Shown piece after piece: positions 28,138-32,956 of a stretch of DNA of 38,561 nt. How positions within the stretch are numbered: the first letter of the stretch is position 1; the number at the start of each line of letters is the position of its first letter. The notes beneath the pieces were generated by a model that did not search any database, had not been told where the DNA came from, and saw only the letters and a program-made list of their open reading frames with translations. A program made the position numbers and the translations under genes. The stretch comes from Streptomyces alkaliterrae (GTDB taxonomy: Bacteria; Actinomycetota; Actinomycetes; Streptomycetales; Streptomycetaceae), in contig NZ_VJYK02000011.1 of assembly GCF_007097205.2 (NCBI RefSeq), forward strand, positions 1-38,561, read 5' to 3'.

Positions 28138-28893
28138 ATGAGCGCACAGCACAGCGGTGAGGTCGCGCTGGTCACCGGCGGCAGCCGGGGCATCGGCTAC
28201 GGCGTCGCCGAGGCTCTGGTGGCCCGCGGCGACCGGGTCTGTCTGACCGGCCGCAACGAGGAGCCGCTGAAGGAGGCGGTGGCCCGCCTGGGCGCGGACC
28301 GCGCGCTGTACGTGGTCGGCAAGGCGCACGACGAGGCGCACCAGGCGGAGACCGTCGAGCGGATCATGGCCGAGTGGGGCCGTCTGGACCACCTGGTCAA
28401 CAACGCCGGCACCAACCCGGTCTTCGGCCCCATCGCCGAGGTCGACCTCGCGGTGGCCAGGAAGGTCTTCGAGACCAACGTGGTCTCCGCCCTGGGCTTC
28501 GCCCAGCGGACGTGGGCCGCCTGGCAGCGCGACAACGGCGGCACCATCGTCAACGTCGCCTCGGTCGCCGGGCTCAGTGCCTTGCCGTTCGTCGGGCCCT
28601 ACGGCGTCAGCAAGGCGGCGCTGCTCAACCTCACCCAGCAGCTCGCCCACGAGTTCGCGCCGACGGTGCGGGTGAACGCGGTCGCCCCGGCGGTCGTGAA
28701 GACGAAGTTCGCCGCCGCGCTGTACGAGGGCCGGGAGCATGAGGCCGCGAGCGGCTACCCGATGGGCCGGCTGGGCGTGCCCGAGGACGTCGCGGGAGCG
28801 GTCGCCTTCCTGGCCTCGCCGGCGGCCGGCTGGATCACCGGCCAGACCCTGGTCGTCGACGGCGGCCTCTTCCTCAACGCCGGGGTGGCCTGA
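28138..28893 (+). CDS. SDR-family oxidoreductase
   Basis: A 251-aa short-chain dehydrogenase with TGGSRGIG (13-20), NNAG (88-91) and catalytic S142, Y155 and K159. The C-terminal [13 protein letters not shown] block is typical of the classical SDR group. GAGAGGAG precedes the ATG. It is 26 bp after the FabG-like gene and co-transcribed. The two differ enough in sequence to act on different substrates. A hairpin begins about 10 nt after the stop. Confidence 0.9.
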
Positions 28894-28903
28894 CCTGTTG
28901 TCC

Positions 28904-28954
28904 GGCCGTGGCGGGCTCCGTCGATCTTCACGGTTCGCGGGCCCGCCACCGGCC
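28904..28954 (+). terminator. Terminator after the dehydrogenase pair
   Basis: GTGGCGGGC (28908-28916) pairs with GCCCGCCAC (28941-28949); with a one-base bulge, GGCC/GGCC adds four more pairs. The loop is 24 nt. Confidence 0.5.
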
Positions 28955-29003
28955 CCGCCGCATTGACCGTCGGCAACCGTTGAATCACGGGTTGAGCAGC
29001 CGA

Positions 29004-29032
29004 TTCAGCTCTGGCGGACGCTGCGGTAGGGT
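29004..29032 (+). promoter_or_regulatory. Promoter of the peptide-binding lipoprotein gene
   Basis: TTCAGC (29004-29009), a 17-nt spacer and TAGGGT (29027-29032). The -10 is strong and the -35 weak. It gives a long leader of about 137 nt before GTG 29176; no riboswitch class was recognised in it. Confidence 0.45.
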
Positions 29033-29175
29033 CTGCCTCGTTGTTGGCCCCGAGTCCGGGAACGGCCGCCGTGCGCGAGACGCACGGCCCAGCGGCACCG
29101 GCCGAGCCGGCACGAAGCTTCCCTGTCGTTTCAGCATGTTCGGCATTGGTTCGTCGCCGATCGAGGAGTGTGCAC

Positions 29176-30768
29176 GTGGTCAGCCGGATGAGGCCTCTGA
29201 GGGCCGTGGCGGTTCTGTCGGCAGCGGCAGTGCTCGCCGGTTGCGGTTCGTTCTCGGGTGGCGGCGACGACGAGAACCAGCCCATCAGAGTCGGCACCAC
29301 CAGCGCGCCCAGCGTGCTCGACCCGGCCGGGGCGTGGGACGGCTCGTGGGAGCTGTACCGGAACGTCTACCAGTCACTCCTGCACTTCCCCGGTTCCGGC
29401 GGCACGCCCGAGCCGGACGCGGCGAAGTCGTGCTCCTTCACCGACAACAAGAGCCAGGTCTACCGCTGCACGCTGCGCGAGGGCCTGGAGTTCTCCAACG
29501 GCAACAAGCTGGACGCGGCGGCGGTCAAGCACTCCATCGAGCGCATCCTGAAGATCAACTCGCCGGCCGGCCCGGCCCCGCTGCTGGACAGCCTGGACCG
29601 AATAGAGACCACGGGGGACGACACCGTCGTCTTCCACCTCAAGAAGCCCACAGCGACCTTCCCGCTCGTGCTGGCGACCCCCGCCGGCTCCCTGGTGGAT
29701 CCGGCCTCCTACCCGGCGGACAAGCTGCGCGAGGGCGACTCCGGCGGTGCGATCGTCGGTTCCGGCCAGTACAAGATCAAGAAGTACGAGGCCGGCGAGG
29801 TCGCCGAGCTGGAGCGCAACGGCAAGTACCAGGGCTCCGCCAAGACCCGGAACGACGCCGTCACGATCCGCTACTTCGACGACTCCGGCAGCCTGGTGAA
29901 GGCGCTGGAGGACGAGGAGCTCGACCTCGCCTACCGCGGACTGACCCCCGACCAGATCACCGACCTGGGCGGCCGCTCCGGCAGCCAGTCCTCGATCAAG
30001 GTGAACGAGATCGTCGGCACCGAGATCCGCTACCTGGTCTTCAACCCCGAGGACGACGCCGTGAAGAACCCGGCCGTCCGAGAGGCCGTCGCCCAGCTGA
30101 TCGACCGCAAGGCCCTGGTGCGCAACGTCTACAAGCGCACCGCCGAACCGCTGTACTCGATGGTCCCCGGCGGCATCACCGGTCACACCAACGCCTTCTA
30201 CGACCGCTACGGCGAGCCGAACCAGCGCAAGGCCAAGTCGGTCCTCCAGGCAGCGGGCATCAACGAGCCGGTCGAGTTCACCCTCTGGTACACCACCGAC
30301 CGCTACGGTGCCACCACCAAGGCGGAGTTCGAGGAGATCCAGCGCCAGCTCAACGGCTCGGGGCTGTTCAAGGTGGAAATCGAGGGGCGGCCCTGGAACG
30401 AGTTCCAGAAGGCCTACCAGGAGGGCACCTACCCGGTCTTCGGCCGTGGCTGGTTCGCCGACTTCCCGGACGCCGACAACTACATCGGCCCGTTCGTCGG
30501 CGAGAACAACGCGCTCGGCATCCCCTACGTCGACAGCAAGCTGACCGGCAGCATCCTGCCGGAGTCGCGCAAGGAGAGCGACCGCGCGACGGCCGGGAAC
30601 ACCCTCAAGGAGGCGCAGCGGCTGCTCGCCAGGGACGCCCGGCTGATCCCGCTGTGGCAGGGCAACGTCCACATCGCCGCCTACGAGCACGTGGCCGGCG
30701 TGGAGTGGGCCATCGACGCCTCGACGATCATGCGGGTCGGCGAGCTGCACCGGAAGTCCAGCTGGTAG
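29176..30768 (+). CDS. Oligopeptide ABC-transporter substrate-binding lipoprotein
   Basis: A 530-aa solute-binding protein of the SBP_bac_5 (DppA/OppA) family. A lipoprotein signal (1-22) ends at the lipobox LAGC with C23. Family blocks: TLREGLEFSNGNKLDAAAVKHSIERI broken across about 110-135, and VREAVAQLIDRKALV near 310. It binds peptides or similar ligands outside the membrane and would hand them to a permease, but no permease or ATPase genes are adjacent, so it is an orphan component. GTG 29176 with GAGGAG 7 nt upstream gives a normal signal peptide; a longer frame upstream overlaps the leader. The stop is followed by a DNA-damage-type promoter for ung. Confidence 0.9.
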   Translation: MVSRMRPLRAVAVLSAAAVLAGCGSFSGGGDDENQPIRVGTTSAPSVLDPAGAWDGSWELYRNVYQSLLHFPGSGGTPEPDAAKSCSFTDNKSQVYRCTLREGLEFSNGNKLDAAAVKHSIERILKINSPAGPAPLLDSLDRIETTGDDTVVFHLKKPTATFPLVLATPAGSLVDPASYPADKLREGDSGGAIVGSGQYKIKKYEAGEVAELERNGKYQGSAKTRNDAVTIRYFDDSGSLVKALEDEELDLAYRGLTPDQITDLGGRSGSQSSIKVNEIVGTEIRYLVFNPEDDAVKNPAVREAVAQLIDRKALVRNVYKRTAEPLYSMVPGGITGHTNAFYDRYGEPNQRKAKSVLQAAGINEPVEFTLWYTTDRYGATTKAEFEEIQRQLNGSGLFKVEIEGRPWNEFQKAYQEGTYPVFGRGWFADFPDADNYIGPFVGENNALGIPYVDSKLTGSILPESRKESDRATAGNTLKEAQRLLARDARLIPLWQGNVHIAAYEHVAGVEWAIDASTIMRVGELHRKSSW

Positions 30769-30773
30769 TCCCG

Positions 30774-30796
30774 TTGTCGGTGCCGACCGGTACGTT
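30774..30796 (+). promoter_or_regulatory. LexA-independent DNA-damage promoter (PafBC/RecA-NDp type) for ung
   Basis: TTGTCGGTG (30774-30782), 8 nt (ccgaccgg), TACGTT (30791-30796) is a perfect match to TTGTCRGTG-N8-TAnnnT, the actinobacterial DNA-damage promoter. Transcription would start near 30803, giving a 5' UTR of about 33 nt. Confidence 0.75.
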
Positions 30797-30823
30797 CTGA
30801 CGTGTCATTATCAGACGTACCGG
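30787..30823. repeat. 13-bp dyad between the lipoprotein and ung genes
   Basis: CCGGTACGTTCTGA (30787-30800) and TCAGACGTACCGG (30811-30823) are complementary over 13 pairs with one bulged T and a 10-nt loop. The left arm holds the -10 of the ung promoter; the right arm reaches the ung Shine-Dalgarno sequence (GGAGG, 30822-30826). It could terminate read-through from the upstream gene or be an operator. Confidence 0.6.
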
Positions 30824-30835
30824 AGGTACCACGAC

Positions 30836-31516
30836 GTGATCGACATGCTGCCCGGCTCCTGGCAGGACGTCCTCGGCGACGAGCTGACCAAGCCCTACTT
30901 CAAGGAACTCACCGAGTTCGTGGAGGCGGAGCGCGCGGCCGGCCCGGTCTTCCCGCCGCGTGACGAGGTCTTCGCGGCCCTGGAGGCCACGCCGTACCAG
31001 CGCGTCAAGGTGCTCGTCCTCGGCCAGGACCCGTACCACGGCGAGGGCCAGGGCCACGGACTGTGCTTCTCGGTGCGGCCCGGTGTGCGCACGCCGCCCT
31101 CCCTGCGGAACATCTTCAAGGAGATGCACGAGGAGCTGGGCCACCCGGTCCCCGACAACGGCTTCCTGGCGCCCTGGGCCGAGCAGGGCGTGCTGCTGCT
31201 CAACGCGGTGCTCACTGTGCGCTCCGGAGAGGCAAACTCGCACAAGAACCAGGGCTGGGAGACGTTCACCGACGCCGTGATCCGGGCCGTCGCCGAGCGC
31301 GAGGACCCGGCGGTCTTCGTGCTGTGGGGCAACTACGCGAAGAAGAAGCTCCGCCTCATCGACACCGAGCGGCACACCGTCGTGCAGGGCGCCCACCCCT
31401 CACCGCTGTCCGCCAAGCGCTTCTTCGGCTCCCGGCCCTTCACCCAGATCAACGAGGCCGTCGCCGCCCACGGGCACGAGCCGATCGACTGGCGCCTCCC
31501 CGACCTGGGGCGCTGA
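30836..31516 (+). CDS. ung: Uracil-DNA glycosylase (family 1)
   Basis: A 226-aa DNA repair enzyme that cuts uracil from DNA. The water-activating motif GQDPYHG (D65), the uracil-binding and intercalation motifs, and HPSPLS with H187 are intact. The length is normal. GTG 30836 is chosen because GGAGG lies 9 nt upstream; ATG 30845 is an alternative three codons in. High-GC genomes suffer frequent cytosine deamination, so it should be important. The upstream region has a perfect LexA-independent damage promoter and a dyad covering the Shine-Dalgarno sequence. A 10-bp hairpin follows the stop. Confidence 0.95.
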   Translation: MIDMLPGSWQDVLGDELTKPYFKELTEFVEAERAAGPVFPPRDEVFAALEATPYQRVKVLVLGQDPYHGEGQGHGLCFSVRPGVRTPPSLRNIFKEMHEELGHPVPDNGFLAPWAEQGVLLLNAVLTVRSGEANSHKNQGWETFTDAVIRAVAEREDPAVFVLWGNYAKKKLRLIDTERHTVVQGAHPSPLSAKRFFGSRPFTQINEAVAAHGHEPIDWRLPDLGR

Positions 31517-31554
31517 CCCCCCTCGCCCGTTGCGGCGGCCGTGCCGAGAACCAT

Positions 31555-31586
31555 GCCGCGGGCCCGTGTGGGGGAAGGCCCGCGGC
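31555..31586 (+). terminator. Terminator after ung
   Basis: GCCGCGGGCC (31555-31564) pairs perfectly with GGCCCGCGGC (31577-31586) around a 12-nt loop, about 40 nt past the stop. Confidence 0.6.
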
Positions 31587-31740
31587 GGTACGGGGCGCCT
31601 GTCCGCCCGAGCGGCCGGGCGGAGCTAGCGTCAGCGGCGGCGGCCGTCCGGTCGCCGCTCCCGACGCCGCCGGCGCACCGCGGGCAGGTCCGCGCGGGCG
31701 GCCGGGAGCGCGGGGGCGCGAGCAGACGAAAGGTCAGTCG

Positions 31741-32259
31741 ATGACCGACCCGCCCCGGCCGGCTCCCGACCGGCTCGCCACCCGCATCGGGCAGGCGGTC
31801 ATCCTGCACCGCGCGGGAGACCGCGAGGAGGCGCGCAGCCGCCTGGCCGCGCTGTGGGCGGAACTCCAGGGCGGCCCGGCAGCGCAGGGCGATCCGGCCG
31901 TGCCGGGCGGCCCGGCCGTCGGCGGCGCGCTGGCCCGCTGTACGGTCGCGCACTACCTCGCCGGCACCCAGGAGGACCCGTACACCCGCCTCCAGTGGCA
32001 TCTGCGGGCCCTGTCGGCGGCGCGCGGGCACCGGGAACCGGCCGACGGGCGGTCGGAGGAGCCGTCCCCTGCGATGCGGGCGCTGTACCCGTTGCTCTGC
32101 CTCGGCCTCGCCGACGGCTACGCGGAGCTCGGGGAGCGCGCGGCCGCCCGGCGTGAACTGGCCCGTGCGCGGGCGGCGTTGGCGGCACTCCCGGACGAGG
32201 GCCGCCGTGCGGACCTCCAGGCGGCTGCGGACCGGCTCGCCCGCCGCCTCGACCCGTGA
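31741..32259 (+). CDS. Hypothetical helical protein (TPR-like)
   Basis: A 172-aa Ala/Arg-rich soluble protein, not confidently assigned to a family. Helical repeats can be seen: LATRIGQAVILHRAGDREEA, then YPLLCLGLADGYAELGERAA and ARRELARARAALAALPDEG. The hydrophobic spacing recalls tetratricopeptide repeats. Between them is a low-complexity Gly/Pro patch (about 42-62). The ATG at 31741 has only a weak AAAGG-like site upstream. It stands alone between ung and the convergent TetR gene. A short CGACAC/GTGTCG hairpin (32269-32291) lies after the stop. Possible roles in protein-protein contacts are speculation. Confidence 0.65.
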   Translation: MTDPPRPAPDRLATRIGQAVILHRAGDREEARSRLAALWAELQGGPAAQGDPAVPGGPAVGGALARCTVAHYLAGTQEDPYTRLQWHLRALSAARGHREPADGRSEEPSPAMRALYPLLCLGLADGYAELGERAAARRELARARAALAALPDEGRRADLQAAADRLARRLDP

Positions 32260-32320
32260 GACCGCGCCCGACACACCTGTGGGACGTGTCGACGGAGCCC
32301 GGGAAGCAACGGCCGCAGGC

Positions 32321-32956
32321 TCAGCCGCCGCTCGCCCCGCCGGTCCGCCCGGCGGGCAGCATCGCCCCGAGCAGTTCCGTCAGACCGGCGCGCAACTGCT
32401 CGCGCGTGGGCCGGCGCCTGCTGTAGGACCCGGCCGTCGAGCCGAACAGCACACCGTCGCACCACGCCGTCAGCGAGTGGGCGTGCCGCTCGGGATCGGG
32501 TGAACCGGCCGCCGCCAGCAGCGCGCTCAGCGGCCGCTGGAAGCCCACCTCGCCGACCTCGTCGTAGCAGGCCCGCAGTGCCGGGCGACGCGTCGCCTCC
32601 AGCGCCAGCTCGTAGCGGGCGACCAGCAGCTCCCGGTGGTCGCTCAGATAGCCGCTCAGAGCTCCCGCCACGGCGTCGGCCAGCCCGGCCACACCGGCGC
32701 CCGGGACCGGCATGCCCTCAGGGTCCAGGACGCGGCGCTCCCGCACGAGCAGACGGCGCACCGCCGCCTCCAGCAGCGCCTCGCGCGTCCGGGCGTGGTT
32801 GGAGGTCGAGCCGGGCGGCAGACCCGCGGCCTCGTCGACCGCGCGGTGCGTCAGCCCGCGCATACCGCGCTCGGCGAGCAGCCGGATGGCCGTGTCGGAG
32901 ATCAGTTCCGCCCTGGCCTGCCCGCGCGGGGGCAGGGGCGTGGGTGCAGCGGACAT
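32321..32956 (-). CDS. TetR-family transcriptional regulator
   Basis: A 211-aa repressor-type protein. The TetR helix-turn-helix (about 14-60) reads ISDTAIRLLAERGMRGLTHR and VDEAAGLPPGSTSNHARTRE. The C-terminal ligand domain (about 75-205) includes WCDGVLFGSTAG. The ATG at 32956 follows TAGGGT by 6 nt, so the mRNA is probably leaderless. It is divergent from the FAD monooxygenase operon, with two copies of a palindrome in the gap; the regulator most likely represses both. TetR proteins next to monooxygenases often sense the substrate, such as an aromatic compound or antibiotic; the ligand is unknown. Confidence 0.9.
   Translation of the reverse strand: MSAAPTPLPPRGQARAELISDTAIRLLAERGMRGLTHRAVDEAAGLPPGSTSNHARTREALLEAAVRRLLVRERRVLDPEGMPVPGAGVAGLADAVAGALSGYLSDHRELLVARYELALEATRRPALRACYDEVGEVGFQRPLSALLAAAGSPDPERHAHSLTAWCDGVLFGSTAGSYSRRRPTREQLRAGLTELLGAMLPAGRTGGASGG

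Follow-up and report, generated by a model that had tools for sequence, protein, structure and literature searches.

A putative PafBC-type DNA-damage promoter upstream of ung in Streptomyces, overlapped by a local dyad

The ung gene of Streptomyces alkaliterrae is preceded by a short segment in which a motif of the PafBC (RecA-NDp) promoter type and an inverted repeat, or dyad, occupy the same bases (Table 1). The window, i.e., the whole stretch of 38,561 nt that was analyzed, is from contig NZ_VJYK02000011.1. Two questions arise from this arrangement: whether ung is part of the PafBC DNA-damage regulon, and whether the dyad places a second layer of control on the gene, as a preliminary description of the locus had proposed. 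Sequence comparisons strongly support the placement of ung under a genus-wide conserved DNA-damage promoter, and membership in the regulon is given a probability of about 0.85. The dyad is, by the same comparisons, a local feature and not a genus-wide one like the promoter.

Table 1. Positions in the window of the features discussed in the text
Feature	Position	Strand	Basis
ABC substrate-binding lipoprotein gene, upstream of ung	29188..30768	+	best NCBIfam match Opp5A_nikA, 1.8e-30, below cut-off
PafBC/RecA-NDp-type promoter, TTGTCGGTG-N8-TACGTT	30774..30796	+	12/12 defined positions of TTGTCRGTG-N8-TANNNT
Outer stem extension, left	30779..30784	+	RNA fold; pairs with the stretch past the right arm
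Dyad left arm, contains the -10	30787..30800	+	repeat search, RNA fold
Predicted transcription start of damage-induced ung mRNA	30803..30805	+	inferred from spacing in 10/18 motif copies
Dyad right arm, overlaps first two bases of the Shine-Dalgarno GGAGG	30811..30823	+	repeat search, RNA fold
ung Shine-Dalgarno, GGAGG	30822..30826	+	sequence; 9 nt before GTG
Outer stem extension, right	30825..30830	+	RNA fold
ung, uracil-DNA glycosylase, 226 aa	30836..31516	+	NCBIfam PRK05254 and TIGR00628 equivalogs, above cut-off

The promoter motif and its conservation

The perfect promoter match reported in the preliminary description is confirmed, with the -10 at positions 30791–30796. The motif is unique in the window when a gap of 7–9 nt is allowed, and none of 100 dinucleotide shuffles has one. 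The gene downstream starts with GTG at position 30836 in the window sequence. No housekeeping sigma-70-type promoter was found in positions 28700–32600. LexA/SOS control of ung was considered and rejected, as there is no SOS-box-like site near the gene; the nearest one-mismatch site is at positions 30145–30156, and the count in the window is at chance level.

The exact motif is found within approximately 200 nt before ung in 61 of 80 named relatives, which are Streptomyces by title except for one Actinacidiphila and one "Actinobacteria bacterium OK074". The other 19 match at 11/12 positions, mostly with C replacing the first T, and none scores lower. Conservation across Streptomyces had been named in the preliminary description as a check on the motif, and it is found in the larger set as well: all 110 loci (the 80 named relatives plus 30 more, with the window included) score 11–12/12, with exactly one match per locus, under a search pattern that admits only few deviations. 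Removal of five duplicates leaves 105 distinct upstream regions, again with the window, of which 83 score 12 and 22 score 11. Scores of 10 or more are reached by 5 of 471 random 200-nt windows from the same loci. A strict pattern of motif, leader and ung start matches 317/392 genus genomes, where a few rows represent other genes. The ung gene itself was detected by protein search in 198/199 genus genomes.

The regulon, its regulator and a second ung

There are 18 exact copies of the motif in the genome and none in the reversed control. Each of 81 genus genomes (81/81) has 9–44 exact motifs, compared with about 0.1, mostly 0, in reversed controls. DNA-repair genes are downstream of eight of the 18 copies: recA, uvrB, radA, an sbcD-like phosphoesterase, a rarA/MgsA ATPase, an O6-methylguanine methyltransferase, an AlkZ-like glycosylase and ung. 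The non-repair genes encode, among others, a DUF2277 protein and a WGR protein. Ten of the downstream genes were searched against Pfam, and the names SbcD and RadA are sequence readings with partial Pfam support. The genome also has tandem genes at G000:C335 whose matches in solved complexes are PafB (E 1e-57) and PafC (E 2e-53). It is highly improbable that another factor, for example ClgR, or the housekeeping sigma factor alone, reads the promoter in place of PafBC: ClgR binding to the motif was proposed for mycobacteria (cited in PMC5656591), but RecA-NDp promoters are assigned to PafBC with ssDNA and sigma-A polymerase in the available text of PMC6789036, PMC11804915 and PMC8223512, and both pafB and pafC are present here.

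In ten of the 18 copies the start codon is 6–8 nt past the -10, a leaderless-like spacing from which the ung transcript would begin at the site given in Table 1. Many of the copies at L006–L018 in this genome (G000) have this short distance, and a large share of the damage regulon may consist of leaderless mRNA.

Published work on Streptomyces bears on this assignment. RecA-NDp promoters are reported at S. coelicolor recA and SCO6735, and SCO6735 is up 5-fold after UV (PMC5087735, PMC9411070). These promoters are of the same genus and motif type as that of ung; they serve genes other than ung, and no overlapping hairpin is described in the accessible text of PMC5087735. In S. lividans, RecA, UvrB, UvrA, Ung2/SCO1343 and RadA are reported to be raised together (log2 values of 2.08, 1.69, 1.20, 1.04 and 0.91, respectively); the rise in SCO1343 is 2.1-fold and occurred under heterologous protein production with no damaging agent (PMC6302529). 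SCO1343 is likely an orthologue of the window ung, as inferred from gene order: the window has the order fabG-SDR-lipoprotein-ung, SCO1346 is reported as fabG3 (PMC4595836), and S. violaceoruber has the lipoprotein gene 28 nt upstream. No openly accessible paper was found that joins ung to a RecA-NDp promoter, with the promoter study of 2004 and the regulon study of 2018 covered through citations only.

The ung promoter shares its two-part motif and spacing with the Mycobacterium recA RecA-NDp promoter (P1) and PafBC regulon, and the genome has in common with that regulon pafB, pafC and repair genes of several kinds. A difference is that ung is unmentioned in the portions of the mycobacterial literature searched. 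Streptomyces LexA/SOS promoters likewise drive damage-induced repair genes, but they work by de-repression at an SOS box, whereas the ung promoter would work by activation and has no SOS-box-like site.

Motif conservation, the regulon, the regulator genes and the published co-induction of the orthologue together strongly support the interpretation as a PafBC/RecA-NDp promoter. PafBC dependence, the start site and damage induction in the S. alkaliterrae strain are predictions from these data. After damage, ssDNA-activated PafBC would let the housekeeping RNA polymerase use TTGTCGGTG-N8-TACGTT, and ung RNA would start near position 30804 with a short leader and a more accessible Shine-Dalgarno. 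According to the available part of a 2022 report, the M. smegmatis PafBC motif seemed not to be conserved in S. venezuelae and a LexA-independent response was still to be shown, which left open a working PafBC damage response in Streptomyces (PMC9380542). The genus-wide set of promoters, with ung as a conserved member, makes this response testable.

The genome has a second ung gene at G000:C168:11696-12298, with 49% identity to the window copy. It is without the motif (best score 7/12, at chance level), as are the second copies in nine of ten genus relatives; the exception, L197, scores 11/12. Judged by identity and not by a tree, the second ung is apparently the type that is the sole copy in most other families sampled. 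That the window gene is an extra ung under PafBC control is well supported by these comparisons; it would be made on demand, next to the copy at G000:C168. Streptomycetes may keep a damage-switched ung beside one that lacks the motif, a division of labour in base-excision repair.

The window ung is closer to ung in Enterococcus- and Listeria phage-labelled records (54% identity) than to the second copy, which suggests acquisition from outside the actinomycetes. Outside the genus, four of ten ung loci in family f17 (L176, L178, L179, L186) score 10–11/12 with the motif 42–45 nt upstream, and the remaining six score 9 or less. These PafBC-like motifs may point to more than one origin for the damage control of ung. 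Six ung loci in family f4 have motif scores at chance level only.

Structure of the dyad

The dyad at positions 30787–30823 consists of nine contiguous base pairs, a bulged T, four more pairs and a 10-nt loop, and is formed by the arms CCGGTACGT-T-CTGA and TCAGACGTACCGG. The 13 base pairs of the preliminary description are present, although only when the one bulged T is allowed. Its statements on the position of the arms hold as well: the left arm contains the -10, and the right arm reaches the Shine-Dalgarno, with an overlap at 30822–30823. Secondary structure modeling adds an outer stem extension that brings most of the promoter and the Shine-Dalgarno into the fold. The RNA of positions 30774–30835 has a folding energy of -32.5 kcal/mol (z -5.3), and none of 200 shuffles is as good. 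RNA that begins at position 30804 is without the left arm and folds as expected by chance (z +0.7). The claim that promoter-started RNA would contain the right arm but not the left is supported by the predicted start site.

The dyad is real and unusual among the PafBC promoters of this genome. Of the 18 motif copies, 15 have z values above -2 (62 nt), and a general folding habit of PafBC promoters was rejected as only ung, L003 and L017 fall below -2. The promoters of L017 and L003 (G000:C751:4060-4082 and G000:C39:1109-1131) have z values of -3.5 and -3.0, and one of them is before the AlkZ-like glycosylase. With up to three mismatches allowed, the genome has a single match to the 37-bp dyad structure. 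Conservation of the dyad, which the preliminary description had named as a check along with that of the motif, is not found in the near relatives examined: six of them (L110, L210–L214) have the promoter but not the 13-bp form. A search of Rfam shows nothing above threshold, and a sub-threshold match is on the other strand only (30610–30672).

Possible roles of the dyad

The promoter is close to the end of the lipoprotein gene, with 5 nt between the stop codon and the motif in the window. The same lipoprotein gene is directly upstream of ung on the same strand in 80 of the 105 loci, where the median distance is 28 nt. In the other 25 loci the best upstream coding frame is also on the ung strand, such that all 105 have a co-directional gene upstream. 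RNA that runs in from this gene would contain both arms of the dyad.

Most likely, the dyad is a hairpin that matters only in such read-through RNA, while its function is a conjecture. As a best guess, held at somewhat less than even odds, it represents a lineage-specific hairpin, formed in RNA entering from the lipoprotein gene and absent from the damage-induced RNA, that would mask the ung Shine-Dalgarno and may hinder the read-through RNA. In the window, opening of the Shine-Dalgarno and start region is calculated to cost 16.8 kcal/mol in read-through RNA versus 7.8 kcal/mol in promoter-started RNA. Over the 105 loci, masking shows no significant gain relative to swapped left halves (p 0.12). 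Many of these loci are close relatives, and the p values for control folds, masking and sense versus antisense folding overstate independence for this reason.

An alternative, doubtful but with several points in its favor, assigns the dyad to the lipoprotein mRNA, as an intrinsic terminator or a 3'-end hairpin. It would happen to share its DNA with the ung promoter and would stop or trim incoming RNA, with no effect on translation. The fold starts about 5–10 nt past the lipoprotein stop codon, and a stable GC-rich hairpin after a stop codon, one mark of terminators, is present. Across the 105 loci, RNA from motif to start codon has a mean fold z of -1.65 (34/105 below -2), whereas the stretch from stop codon to motif does not fold (mean z -0.04, n=100) and controls give only -0.26 (315 windows) and -0.31 (29 upstream regions of an annotated Streptomyces plasmid). 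The uniformly co-directional upstream genes also fit a terminator, as do two recurring architectures in which the promoter pairs either with ACCGG-A-GGTTGTTGAC, which includes the Shine-Dalgarno, or with a GACCGC stretch that ends before it. However, no U-tract follows the hairpin and the terminator scan does not list it. Averaging over clusters gives a strong fold signal with 26 clusters or more and a borderline one with 10 deep clusters (p 0.05–0.08), and RNAalifold gives no consensus pairs for the 45-sequence class of window-like loci, i.e., the structure is inconsistent. The earlier proposal that the dyad ends read-through from the lipoprotein gene may hold: the co-directional upstream gene and the better-than-chance fold are consistent with it, but the missing U-tract, the weak covariation and the lack of conserved masking are not in its favor. 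Terminators without a U-tract and Shine-Dalgarno-masking leaders similarly place a stable hairpin past an upstream stop codon and over a downstream Shine-Dalgarno; the ung dyad differs in that it overlaps a promoter and its structure is not conserved in detail.

It is unlikely that the dyad is neutral, i.e., that CCGG by the -10 pairs by coincidence with the CCGG of CCGGAGG and that the rest drifted to a greater length in this lineage. Within the class the CCGG/CCGG pairing hardly varies, which the promoter spacer and Shine-Dalgarno explain, and no other genome examined has the long form. At the named register, 83% of cells in the 45-sequence class are paired, compared with 25–49% when it is slid, with most columns fixed by the promoter or the Shine-Dalgarno. 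Changes on both sides are seen in two of 18 pairs (8 cells), and in one of nine pairs in the smaller class. The exchange that is informative, with C replacing G in the -10 and G in the right arm, has about two origins, and covariation in the dyad region is weak. Coupling of the R of TTGTCRGTG to a base before the start codon has too few cases to claim. Against a neutral origin are the extreme z value of the window fold, which no shuffle equals, and the mostly unfolded state of the other PafBC promoters of the genome. In addition, right halves suit their own promoters better than shuffled ones do, with a mean z of -1.59 over the 105 loci when the left half is held fixed. As duplexes, native halves differ little from swapped halves (-21.1 versus -19.3 kcal/mol), and sense and antisense strands fold equally well (p 0.13). 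Six loci (L028, L029, L034, L040, L064, L122) were given a start codon that is too early, and the shortened right ends affect the fold-z, shuffle, duplex, architecture, R-coupling, class, covariation, RNAalifold, cluster and sense/antisense results; the masking-energy analysis attempted a correction.

The read-through hairpin could be part of a wider arrangement, in which the same bases are two devices throughout Streptomyces: a PafBC promoter as DNA and, in read-through RNA, a hairpin into which the promoter is folded, together with the Shine-Dalgarno in this lineage. The ung mRNA would be translated only when started by damage, and different lineages would have rebuilt the hairpin with different right arms. 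This arrangement is decidedly unlikely.

It is quite improbable that the dyad is an operator, where a repressor or activator would add a second control to ung. The nearly perfect arms lie over the -10 and start site, a usual position of a repressor site, but the arms are not kept in near relatives and no known site could be named. No further copies that could serve a repressor are in the genome at up to three mismatches, and together with the absence in the six relatives this makes an operator shared by the regulon unlikely; an operator for a single gene is compatible with a single copy. Of the second layer of control proposed in the preliminary description, the dyad is real, but the layer as such is not established.

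Long hairpin-like repeats are also seen in some relatives (L036, L066, L070, L092, L095), where they lie past the promoter within the leader of ung.
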